Assembly: GCF_016743775.1 (NCBI RefSeq)
Contig: NZ_JAEQMY010000005.1
Span: 62,001 to 126,000, forward strand
Length of the DNA stretch: 64,000 bases
Source of the DNA: Microvirga aerilata
GTDB lineage: Bacteria; Pseudomonadota; Alphaproteobacteria; Rhizobiales; Beijerinckiaceae
Reading direction: 5' to 3'
This document shows, one piece after another, positions 23,866-46,472 of this stretch. Below the pieces are notes generated by a model that saw only the letters and a list, made by a program, of their open reading frames with translations, did not search any database and was not told the DNA's origin. Position numbers and translations under genes: made by a program. The first letter of the stretch is position 1. Each line of letters starts with the position of its first letter.

Positions 23866-24630
23866 TCAGGCAATCGTGACGCCGCCATCCACCACAATGG
23901 TCTGGCCGGTCATGAAGCGTGCCGCCGGGGAGGCCAGGAAGGCGGCCACGGGGCCGATCTCGTCGGGGGTTCCGATCCGGCGCAGGGGTGTCTGGCTGTT
24001 GCGCTGCTCCAGGGCCTCAGGGTTCTCCCAGAGGGCGCGGGCGAAATCCGTCCGGATCAGGCCCGGCGCGATGCAGTTGACCCGTACGTTCCTCGGGCCC
24101 CATTCCACCGCAAGGTTGCGGGCAAGCGCAAAGTCGGCGGCTTTCGAGATGCCGTAGCCGCCGATCACGCCCGTGCCTCTCAGCCCCGCGATCGACGAGA
24201 TGATCACGACCGCGCCGTCGCCGCGCTCCGCCATGCCCGGGATGACGAGATTGCAGAGCCAGAGATTGCTCTTCACGTTGGATCCCATGATCTTGTCGAA
24301 GGCTTCGTCAGTTAACGAGCTCATGGGGCCGTAGACGGGATTGACGGCAGCGTTGCAGACCAGGATGTCCACGGGTCCGAAACGCTCCTGCGTGCCGGCC
24401 ACCAGCGCCTCCACCTCGTCCTTGCGGGAGATGTTGCAGGGGATGGCGACCGCTTCACCGCCCCGTTGCCGAATGCCTTCCACCACCGGCTCGCAGGCCT
24501 CGATCTTGCGGCTCGATACAACCACCTTGGCCCCCAGGCCCGCCATGGTTTCCGCGATGGAGCGACCGATGCCGCGGCTCGATCCGGTGACGATGGCAAC
24601 CTTGCCGGTGAGGTCGAACGGAGTTGTCAT
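23866..24630 (-). CDS. Short-chain dehydrogenase/reductase (SDR)
   Basis: A 254-residue classical SDR. The NAD(P)-binding motif TGSSRGIG is at residues about 15-22, NAAVNP near 90, and the active-site YGISK near 155. VDGG at the C-terminus is typical of FabG-like and hydroxyacyl-CoA or alcohol dehydrogenases. Its start overlaps the stop of the ACAD11-like gene by four bases. A role on a hydroxyacyl-CoA or keto-acyl intermediate of the same pathway is therefore likely. It is the last gene of the minus-strand acyl-CoA operon. Confidence 0.85.
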
Positions 24631-25868
24631 GCGGCAGGCCCTGTATTGTGCAGCCGGTCGGCGGCTTTGTATTTGGCCAATTCGATCTTGGCGACCGTCT
24701 CGCGATGCACTTCGTCCGGACCGTCCGCGAGCCTGAGCACACGGGCGCGGGCATAGGCGTAAGCCAAGTGGAAATCCTGGGACACGCCGCCTCCGCCGCA
24801 AACCTGGATGGCGCGGTCCACCACCTTCTGGGCCACGTTCGGGGCTACCACCTTGATCATGGCGATCTCGGCGCGGGCCGCCTTGTTGCCGACCTCGTCC
24901 ATCATGCGCGCGGCCTGAAGCGTCAGCAGGCGAGCCTGATCGATCTCCATGCGCGATTCGGCGATCCAGTGGCGCGTCACGCCGTGGTCGGCCACCGGCC
25001 TGCCGAAGGTGCTGCGGGACAGGGCGCGCTTGCACAAGGTCTCGAGCGCCCGCTCGGCCAAGCCGATGGAGCGCATGCAGTGATGGATGCGCCCCGGCCC
25101 GAGGCGCCCTTGCGCGATCTCGAAGCCGCGGCCCTCGCCAAGCAGCATGTTGGAGGCCGGCACGCGCACGTTTTCGAACGCGACTTCCGCATGGCCATGA
25201 GGCGCATCGTCATAGCCGAAGACCGTGAGCGGGCGGATCACCTGTACGCCCGGCGTGTCCATCGGCACCAGGATCATCGATTGCTGCTGATGCTTCGGCG
25301 CGTCGGGATCGGTCTTGCCCATGACGATGGCGATCCTGCAGCGCGGGTCCATGGCGCCGGAGGTCCACCACTTGCGGCCGTTGATGACGTAATCGTCGCC
25401 GTCGCGGCGGATCTCGGTGCGGATGTTGGTGGCGTCGGACGAAGCGACGTCCGGCTCCGTCATGGCAAAGCAGGAGCGGATCTCGCCCTCCATCAGGGGC
25501 TTCAGCCAGCGCTGCTTGTGCTCGTCCGTGCCATACAGGATGAGGGTTTCCATATTGCCGGTATCGGGCGCCGAGCAGTTGAAGGGTTCCGCGCCGATGG
25601 GCGAGCGGCCCATGATCTCGCAGATCATGGCGTATTCCAGATTCGATAACGAATCCGGATAATGGCGCTTCGGCAGAAACAGATTCCACAACCCTTGAGC
25701 CTTGGCGCGCGCTTTCAGATCCTCCATCACGGACGGCACGCCCCAGCGGCTAGGCATGGCATTGAGCTGCTGCTCGAAGATCTCCTCCGCCGGATAAACG
25801 TGAGCTTCCATGAACTCCGCCACGCGGCTGCGGAGTTCTTCGGCGCGTTGGCTGATGGGAAACAGCAT
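24627..25868 (-). CDS. ACAD10/ACAD11-type acyl-CoA dehydrogenase
   Basis: A 413-residue acyl-CoA dehydrogenase whose motifs match the C-terminal half of mammalian ACAD10 and ACAD11. These include [13 protein letters not shown] [40 protein letters not shown] (about 133-148), [19 protein letters not shown] (about 247-265) and LADGPDEVH near the C-terminus. In mammals and in the Pseudomonas levulinate pathway (LvaC), such enzymes act on 4-phosphoacyl-CoA made by an aminoglycoside-phosphotransferase-like kinase. They eliminate phosphate to give an unsaturated CoA ester. The matching kinase is encoded at 45438. FAD use follows from the fold. It lies between the SDR and pimD-like genes. Confidence 0.85.
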
Positions 25869-25881
25869 CGGGGTGCCCTCT

Positions 25882-44923: not shown

Positions 44924-45396
44924 ACGCGCATGCACCCGTGCCCGTTTCGCTTGATGATCTGAAAGGCCAAGTTGGCCAGGAGATTGGTGTATCGCCCTGG
45001 ACGACCATCGATCAGGAGAGGATCGACCGCTTTGCTGAAGTTACGGCGGATCGCCAGTTCATCCACGTGGACCCGGAGAGGGCTGCCGCAGAGACGCCTT
45101 TCGGCGGCACCATCGCGCATGGCTTCCTGACCCTGTCGCTTCTGTCCGCCATGGCACAGGAGGCGTTGCCGGTGCTCGCGAACCGCACCATGGGCATCAA
45201 TTACGGCTTGGAGCGGGTCCGCTTTCTCGCGCCCGTACCGGCTGGAGCGCGGGTGAGGGGACGCTTCACGCTCGCGGATGTTTCCATGCGCTCCTCCGTA
45301 CAGGCCATGCTCCGCTATCAGGTGACCGTCGAGATCGAGGGCGCCGATAAGCCGGCGCTTGCGGCCGAGTGGATCACCCTTGCCGTGCTCGGCTGA
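44920..45396 (+). CDS. MaoC-like (R)-specific enoyl-CoA hydratase
   Basis: A 158-residue hotdog protein with the hydratase-2 signature. DRQFIHVDPERAAAETPFGGTIAHGFLTLSLL carries the catalytic Asp and His. It hydrates trans-2-enoyl-CoA to (R)-3-hydroxyacyl-CoA or acts on branched analogues. Overlap with the SDR gene indicates translational coupling. It would follow the dehydrogenation or phosphate-elimination step of the pathway. Confidence 0.88.
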   Translation: MNAHAPVPVSLDDLKGQVGQEIGVSPWTTIDQERIDRFAEVTADRQFIHVDPERAAAETPFGGTIAHGFLTLSLLSAMAQEALPVLANRTMGINYGLERVRFLAPVPAGARVRGRFTLADVSMRSSVQAMLRYQVTVEIEGADKPALAAEWITLAVLG

Positions 45397-45437
45397 GGTG
45401 GCGTCAGCCCAGGGCATATGAAGGAGGCCGTCTGCCC

Positions 45438-46472
45438 GTGACAGCGCAAGCAACAGCACATCTCGAAGCCGAACGTCTCGGCCCCTATCTTGCGGCGCAC
45501 GTTCCGGCCTTCGGGCAGCTTGTCAGCGCCGAGAAATTCGCCGGCGGCCAGTCGAACCCAACCTTCCTGATCACGTCGACGGAGGGCCGCTTCGTGTTGC
45601 GGCGCAAGCCTCCGGGAGCCCTTTTGAAATCCGCCCATGCGGTCGACCGCGAATACCGGATCATGGCGGCACTGGCTCAGACGGACGTGCCCGTGCCGCA
45701 CGTTCTGCATCTCTGCACGGATGACTCCGTCATCGGGTCCATGTTCTACGTCATGGAACATGTCGAGGGGCGGATCTTCTGGGACGGCAAGCTGCCGGAA
45801 CTTCAGCCCGATGAGCGCCGCGCCATCTACGATTCCATGAATGCGGCGCTTGCGGCCCTGCATAAAGTTGATCCCGCTGCGGTTGGGCTGGCCGATTACG
45901 GGAAACCAGGAAGCTACTTCGAGCGGCAGGTTGCCCGCTGGACGGAGCAATACAGGGCATCCGAGATCCACCCGATCCCGGCCATGGATGCGCTGATCGA
46001 ATGGCTTGTGAGCGCGATGCCGGAGGATGACGGGCGGGTAAGCCTCGTTCATGGCGATTACCGCATCGACAACATGATCTTCGAGCCGTCGGGCGCGCGG
46101 ATCCTCGCGGTTCTCGACTGGGAGCTGTCGACCTTAGGCCACCCCCTCGCGGATCTCGCTTACCAATGTATGCAGTGGCGCCTGCCGTCCGAGGGTGCGT
46201 TCCGCGGCTTGGGGGGAATTGACCGGCAGGCCTATGGCATCCCGACCGAAGCAGAATATGTCGAGCTCTACTGCAAGCGATCCGGCGTTGACGTCATCGG
46301 CAACTGGCCCTTCTATCTCGCCTTCAGCTTCTTCCGGCTCGCCGCCATTCTCCAGGGCGTCTACAAGCGGGCGCTGGATGGGAACGCATCCAACCCCGAG
46401 CGCGGACGCCGCATGGGGGAAGCCGTTCCCATGATGGCCGATATGGCATTGGAGGTCGTCCGCTCCCGCTGA
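45438..46472 (+). CDS. APH-like phosphotransferase, ACAD10/ACAD11-type 4-hydroxyacyl-CoA kinase candidate
   Basis: A 344-residue aminoglycoside-phosphotransferase-fold protein. GTG 45438 is chosen because AAGGAGG (45421-45427) lies 10 bases upstream. It resembles the N-terminal kinase domain of mammalian ACAD10/ACAD11 and bacterial LvaA. Shared blocks include FAGGQSNPTFLI (34-45), VLRRKPPG (53-60), SAHAVDREYRIM, VPVPHVL, HGDYRIDN (205-212, catalytic Asp207) and LDWELSTLG (226-234, metal-binding Asp227), then FSFFRLAAILQGVYKR. Such kinases phosphorylate the 4-hydroxyl of acyl-CoA so that the ACAD partner can eliminate phosphate. The partner gene is at 24627. It ends the plus-strand operon. Confidence 0.82.
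   Translation: MTAQATAHLEAERLGPYLAAHVPAFGQLVSAEKFAGGQSNPTFLITSTEGRFVLRRKPPGALLKSAHAVDREYRIMAALAQTDVPVPHVLHLCTDDSVIGSMFYVMEHVEGRIFWDGKLPELQPDERRAIYDSMNAALAALHKVDPAAVGLADYGKPGSYFERQVARWTEQYRASEIHPIPAMDALIEWLVSAMPEDDGRVSLVHGDYRIDNMIFEPSGARILAVLDWELSTLGHPLADLAYQCMQWRLPSEGAFRGLGGIDRQAYGIPTEAEYVELYCKRSGVDVIGNWPFYLAFSFFRLAAILQGVYKRALDGNASNPERGRRMGEAVPMMADMALEVVRSR

Follow-up and report, generated by a model that had tools for sequence, protein, structure and literature searches.

Separate genes for probable bacterial counterparts of the two ACAD10/ACAD11 halves in a pim-type gene island of Microvirga aerilata

In mammals, ACAD10 and ACAD11 combine a kinase and an acyl-CoA dehydrogenase (ACAD) in one polypeptide. 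The question raised by the locus in this report is whether two genes lying almost 20 kb apart in Microvirga aerilata divide the same two steps between them, and on what kind of substrate they would act. The window, that is, the whole stretch of DNA analyzed, comprises 64,000 nucleotides of contig NZ_JAEQMY010000005.1 (positions 62,001 to 126,000), and coordinates are given within it unless another contig or locus is named. As described in the passages cited here from PMC12440821 and PMC11342911, the kinase half of ACAD10/11 acts on acyl-CoAs rather than free acids and places a phosphate on their 4-hydroxyl group, after which the ACAD half produces a 2-enoyl-CoA by eliminating that phosphate. 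The two window genes are probably separate bacterial counterparts of these halves, which would together carry out the two-step reaction on 4-hydroxyacyl-CoAs. The pair is known in kind and the split itself is ordinary; it is the gene setting that is new.

The kinase and dehydrogenase genes

The dehydrogenase gene (24627..25868, minus strand) encodes an ACAD10/11-LvaC-type protein of 413 amino acids, a putative 4-phosphoacyl-CoA phosphate-eliminating enzyme. The kinase gene (45438..46472, plus strand) starts with GTG, has GGAGG upstream, and encodes an ACAD10/11-type protein of 344 amino acids with a PF01636 domain, a putative 4-hydroxyacyl-CoA kinase. The genes sit in oppositely oriented gene runs, and the DNA between them measures 19,569 bp, in agreement with the two separate genes about 20 kb apart that were noted in the sequence-only reading of this DNA. 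Domain searches found only an aminoglycoside phosphotransferase (APH) domain in the kinase and only an ACAD domain in the dehydrogenase, with no HAD counterpart in either.

In phmmer searches of PDB chain sequences, the kinase matched residues 20-348 of mouse ACAD11 (E 2.3e-85, 290 bits) and the free-standing kinase 3dxp (E 1.7e-117), which we take to come from a Cupriavidus-type organism. The dehydrogenase matched the C-terminal half of ACAD11 (E 2.6e-152 for 2wbi and 3.5e-151 for 8v3u, mouse), then the Mycobacterium-type 4hr3 (1.1e-138), and the first ordinary ACAD appeared only at 1.4e-46. Both proteins match solved structures across nearly their whole length. Judged by sequence comparison, both ACAD11 matches are far beyond chance, and the dehydrogenase resembles ACAD10/11 more than it does ordinary ACADs.

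The residues named in the cited passages of PMC12440821 are, for the kinase, the catalytic D220 and N225 and the CoA-contacting R86 and R176, and, for the ACAD, the catalytic D753 together with R626, H634, and R637 of the phosphate site. Alignment with ACAD11 shows that the window kinase keeps the equivalents of D220, N225, and R176, with the motifs HGDYRIDN, DRE, and RQ, and that the dehydrogenase keeps the equivalents of all four ACAD residues, in R-x7-HCMR and DGPDEVH. With redundant rows included, HGDxxxxN is present in all 146 kinase matches, R-x7-HCMR in 111 of 113 collected ACAD homologue matches, and DG[PA][DN]xVH in 112 of the 113. HAMR replaces HCMR in two ACAD homologues (L073, 8565-9776, and L082, 1201-2376), the second of which is also without the DGPDxVH pattern. 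The assignment of the pair to the ACAD10/11 and LvaA/LvaC types, proposed from the sequence alone, is upheld by the ACAD11 matches and by the R-x7-HCMR, DGPDEVH, and HGDxxxxN motifs and the R176-equivalent Arg.

An accompanying question was whether the kinase would group with unrelated phosphotransferases. In the only tree with outgroups, it shares a branch with the mouse ACAD11 kinase (100/99) to the exclusion of two APH-type proteins of its own genome, a coarse test because the branches of these two outgroups are very long. Four other APH-type proteins were found in the genome; L126 and L127 are in the tree, and L128 and L129 (E 0.001) were left out for length. The mouse ACAD11 kinase itself falls inside the bacterial kinase family.

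Co-occurrence of the two genes

Presence of the kinase and the ACAD was scored at E 1e-60. In the genus sample of 41 genomes, kinase and ACAD were found in an identical set of 18 (compared by eye). The window's version of the pair (kinase at least 78% identical, ACAD at least 91%) occurs in 11 of the 41 genomes, its own included. The spacing is 19.5-19.7 kb on one contig in 10 of these 11, and in G026 the genes are on two contigs. A kinase frame with two in-frame stops lies beside an intact ACAD in G007 (C4:328062-328964); the matches to a second pair in that genome show no stop.

At the order level, 150 genomes were sampled, with up to 12 candidates scored per genome. The kinase was found in 65 genomes and the ACAD in 66: both in 63, the kinase only in two, the ACAD only in three, and neither in 82. 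Requiring at least 50% ACAD identity leaves 45 genomes with both genes, 20 with the kinase only, and none with the ACAD only. An ACAD lies within 5 kb at 28 of the 74 kinase places in these genomes. We also compared loci on named contigs, namely, the best 80 of 534, 11 of them from Microvirga and 69 from elsewhere. The closest kinase contigs in this set are those of Microvirga, with a kinase identity of 84-86% over most of them. Among the 69 non-Microvirga loci, 46 hold an ACAD with at least 48% identity, within 5 kb in 45 of the 46. Separate genes are the usual state in the bacteria surveyed, and they are often close neighbors. The idea that split genes are unusual found no support: the kinase and ACAD are separate in the bacterial loci examined.

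The gene island

The pair is embedded in an island of two gene runs. On the minus strand, the order is QOR, pimA, pimC, pimD-like, ACAD, and SDR_A. The first gene encodes a PIG3-type quinone oxidoreductase (QOR; 29978..30991; TIGR02824, 220.3 bits, below the cut-off of 296.8). It is followed by the genes for the dicarboxylate-CoA ligase PimA (28308..29981; TIGR03205, 795 bits, over the cut-off of 705.6), the ACAD PimC (27064..28260; TIGR03204, 711.6 bits, over the cut-off of 623.85), and a PimD-like ACAD (25882..27030; TIGR03203, 576.6 bits, below the cut-off of 652.7), so that the models of the pim dicarboxylate operon are exceeded by PimA and PimC and not by PimD. SDR_A, a short-chain dehydrogenase/reductase (SDR) gene (23866..24630), has an ATG that overlaps the stop codon of the dehydrogenase gene by 4 bp.

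The plus-strand run begins with an acetyl-CoA acyltransferase (thiolase) gene (31256..32458; TIGR01930, over cut-off), a gene for a FadB/FadJ-type hydratase-dehydrogenase (32492..34609; FadJ model, 519.7 bits, below the cut-off of 869), and a gene for an alpha/beta hydrolase (34634..35620; domain match). It is interrupted by a minus-strand gene for a regulator with two TetR domains (35518..36810; two PF00440 [TetR_N] stretches). The run resumes with genes for a Liv-type importer (LivH, LivM, LivG, and LivF-like; 37244..40574; model matches), a Liv-type substrate-binding protein (40689..41855; model match), a hotdog-fold thioesterase with an uncertain start codon (41863..42390; domain match), and an acyl-CoA ligase (42443..44086; closest model NF005426, 753.8 bits, below the cut-off of 822). 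Next come SDR_B (44093..44923), whose nearest solved structure is 2b4q, a rhamnolipid 3-oxoacyl reductase, a gene for a MaoC-type hydratase (44920..45396; domain match), and the kinase gene. The calls for PimA, PimC, PimD-like, FadB-type, and ligase proteins were made with NCBIfam models and the cut-offs of those models. The neighbors named beforehand from the sequence alone (ligase, SDRs, MaoC, thiolase, FadB-type enzyme, Liv-type importer, pim-type genes, and double TetR regulator) were all recovered by model or domain searches, the importer as five genes. An inositol catabolism cluster bounds the island at 46545-52134, with iolB, an iolE-like TIM-barrel gene, iolD, and a PfkB-DUF2090 gene.

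All 20 island genes are found in the same order in Microvirga genome G008. Outside the genus, parts of the arrangement recur. SDR_B with at least 60% identity is present at 48 of the 69 non-Microvirga kinase loci, MaoC with at least 50% at 45, and both at 38; SDR_B, MaoC, and the kinase therefore form a common unit, and the Microvirga ACAD lies in another run. In Salinarimonas (G191), one contig ends with pimC, pimD, the ACAD (84%), and SDR_A (70%), arranged as in the window, and the kinase (70%) is on another contig. The tandem of ACAD and SDR_A is thus found in Salinarimonas, and it also occurs in five f18 genomes and in Microvirga G002, G011, and G033. In the order sample, five of the 150 genomes, representing three families, have a pimC-like gene at a distance of 2-4 kb from the pair (G078, G087, G151, G177, and G184; by eye). 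In the cited passages of PMC3223731, an ABC importer of Rhodopseudomonas palustris is likewise described beside pimFABCDE. The combination of pim-type genes and importer, which had been thought unusual, thus has parallels. Because separate genes are usual and pim-type genes stand near the pair elsewhere, the arrangement is less unusual than first thought.

A second, diverged island was seen in G002 (C8; L132 and L133) and G011 (C21; L130 and L131). It has FadB, thiolase, QOR, ACAD (70%), SDR_A (57-59%), and double TetR (44-46%) genes with a kinase (51%) about 22 kb off, and it is without pimC, pimD, or the window's importer, having other ABC importers. G033 has a similar set, with no TetR gene seen in the stretches fetched.

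Comparison with known systems

The window pair shares both catalytic halves, a full-length sequence match, and the conserved residues with mammalian ACAD10/ACAD11, and it differs in consisting of two genes 19.57 kb apart rather than one polypeptide and in having nothing equivalent to the HAD domain of ACAD10. Free-standing bacterial proteins of this type have been described in Burkholderia, where, according to the cited passages of PMC11342911, the kinase Q63VL0 and an ACAD each replaced a half of ACAD10 in vitro; the likeness to the window proteins is by description only. The lva operon of Pseudomonas putida, also compared by description (cited passages of PMC9399607, PMC11342911, and PMC12440821), has a separate kinase and ACAD and SDR and CoA-ligase functions, as does the island. 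In contrast to that operon, the island has two opposite runs, with the kinase in one and the ACAD in the other rather than together with the SDR and ligase in a single operon, and it includes pim-type genes and a Liv-type importer.

A close parallel to the gene setting is the pimFABCDE region of R. palustris (PMC3223731, in the passages cited), which has PimA, PimC, and PimD-like enzymes with an importer close by. Among the components of that importer are proteins that bind fatty and dicarboxylic acids, for which cutin and suberin have been proposed as sources (PMC3223731, same passages). Relative to the R. palustris region, the island adds a predicted 4-hydroxyacyl module, the QOR, the SDRs, and the double TetR regulator. 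We take the R. palustris importer and binding proteins to be Liv-type.

Proposed reaction and role

In the proposed mechanism, the kinase would use ATP to phosphorylate an acyl-CoA at its 4-hydroxyl, and the dehydrogenase would then eliminate the phosphate to yield a 2-enoyl-CoA, relying on FAD, its catalytic Asp, and the R/HCMR phosphate site. The 4-phosphoacyl-CoA intermediate would have to pass between the two proteins, and the 2-enoyl-CoA would be finished by the hydratases, dehydrogenase, and thiolase of the island. An SDR may interconvert the 4-keto and 4-hydroxy forms, in a direction that we infer. Gene context (PimA, PimC, PimD-like, thiolase, FadB-type, and Liv-type importer) points to beta-oxidation of imported fatty or dicarboxylic acids as the likely setting. 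By arithmetic, a hydroxyl on an even carbon would arrive at C4 after rounds of beta-oxidation, where ordinary enzymes would be expected to stall; acids whose hydroxyl would reach C4 in this way include 10,16-dihydroxyhexadecanoate and ricinoleate. We tentatively suggest, as the role we prefer although it is on balance doubtful, that the pair rescues acyl-CoAs derived from hydroxylated fatty or dicarboxylic acids once a mid-chain hydroxyl has arrived at C4. Just as speculative is the broader proposal that this step is integral to dicarboxylate and fatty-acid beta-oxidation, clearing mid-chain hydroxyls (e.g., those of cutin- or suberin-derived hydroxy acids) at C4, and that one double-TetR regulator might control both runs.

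Several observations weigh against the explanation as a whole, the two-step reaction included. An APH of unstated role, 9o56, falls inside the kinase tree, and its placement is not separated (P = 0.138 in an approximately unbiased [AU] test). The R86 given in the cited passages of PMC12440821 misfits the chain numbering, and an Arg beside the same Glu is conserved in the kinase. The PimD-like and FadB-type proteins score under the cut-offs of their models. Against solved structures, the binding protein gave at best weak matches, the closest being amino-acid and urea binders, and one of three R. palustris binding proteins bound nothing (cited passages of PMC3223731). At 35 of the 74 kinase places in the order sample, an ACAD was not found on the same contig, and at 11 it lies more than 5 kb away; many of these genomes are drafts. 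The control gene pimC (E 1e-100) was found in 34 of the 150 order genomes, and every one of these 34 also has the kinase, which occurs in 65 (by eye). Finally, the M. aerilata genome holds a second pair in a compact operon (C255:11017-15755, L005), consisting of SDR, ACAD (38% identical to the window's, with R-x7-HCMR), AMP ligase, and kinase (47%) genes adjoined by a TetR gene. Its functions and motif are those of the island pair; its compactness and these identities set it apart.

That second operon bears directly on the substrate. The island had initially been read as importing and degrading a short 4-hydroxy or 4-keto acid, such as levulinate or gamma-lactone products, by an lva-like route, and ligase, SDR, kinase, and ACAD functions are indeed all in the island, as in the lva route (PMC9399607, in the passages cited); its alpha/beta hydrolase could open lactones. 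However, the compact C255 operon fits such a role better and is the better levulinate-type candidate, and of the two ligases in the island, one is by its model PimA, a dicarboxylate-CoA ligase. DUF6285, the family to which LvaB presumably belongs, had no match in the M. aerilata genome in a search that found matches in 2 of 14 control genomes. Since PimA and PimC lie beside the ACAD, a separate C255 operon exists, and the R. palustris importer offers a precedent, we think levulinate less likely as the substrate than a longer or dicarboxylic acid, and we consider a short-acid role for the island unlikely. Contig C255 also carries a pimC-like gene (45%) at 23548-24720.

It is also conceivable that the kinase and dehydrogenase are not partners, the dehydrogenase serving the pim run, the kinase acting on another substrate, and their closeness having no functional meaning. 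They do lie in opposite runs, several genomes have the ACAD-SDR_A tandem at a distance from the kinase, and pimC co-occurs with the kinase too, as it does within the genus (pimC in 15 of 41 genomes, 12 of the 15 with the kinase), so part of the association reflects shared lifestyle. Yet the kinase is tracked more closely by the ACAD (63/65) than by pimC (34/65), no genome among the 150 has an ACAD of at least 50% identity without the kinase, 10 of the 11 islands preserve the spacing, 45 of the 46 loci outside Microvirga that hold both genes have them as close neighbors, and the dehydrogenase keeps its phosphate-site motif; all told, non-partnership seems very improbable. A different history is suggested by identities, namely, a partner exchange in which the kinase and the dehydrogenase of the Microvirga island come from two different ACAD10/11-type systems. 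At the 46 non-Microvirga loci, identity to the window proteins is 61-69% for the kinases and 52-57% for the ACADs (62% in L085). Most partner ACADs fall together, as 15 tree rows, in a clade that excludes the window ACAD (100/100), and nesting the window ACAD within the eight rhizobial ones gives a tree that is rejected (P = 9e-47). Attractive as this is, AU tests did not reject a history common to both genes, either with the window ACAD joined to the whole 15-row clade (P = 0.21 and 0.107) or with the partner kinases forming a single clade that leaves out the window kinase (P = 0.25). Partner exchange is thus not established, and we think it quite unlikely.

Possible operators

Two kinds of repeat, both conserved, may serve as operators bound by the double TetR protein. 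An inverted repeat, GACAAAA-N9-TTTTGTC, lies at 31128..31150 between the divergent QOR and thiolase genes; its arms are exact in 9 of 10 island sequences compared, and 33 of 100 shuffles also match with up to three mismatches. Two plus-strand copies of a repeat like ACYGTACCGKTYATTC lie at 36917-36932 and 37087-37102 between the TetR and LivH genes. A loose pattern for this repeat occurs twice in 8 of the 10 island sequences and once in 2, and two matches are reached by 19 of 100 shuffles of the window. An operator shared by both gene runs was considered and set aside: because the repeats have only a TACCG core in common and shuffles often reach the observed counts (33 and 19 of 100), we claim no common operator.

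Significance and annotation

It was not until 2024-2025 that the ACAD10/11 reaction was explained, and levulinate is the bacterial example described. A conserved island with both enzymes beside genes for beta-oxidation of dicarboxylates and fatty acids suggests a wider bacterial role in the removal of internal hydroxyls, and the free-standing enzymes are offered for mechanistic work. In the parts of the open-licence literature covered, with subscription papers mostly outside that scope, we found no description of the pair in a pim-type island. The comparison also corrects the annotation of the kinase, which is usually named aminoglycoside phosphotransferase or phosphotransferase family protein. 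The kinase structure 3dxp was deposited as a "putative acyl-CoA dehydrogenase," apparently after the other half of the pair.

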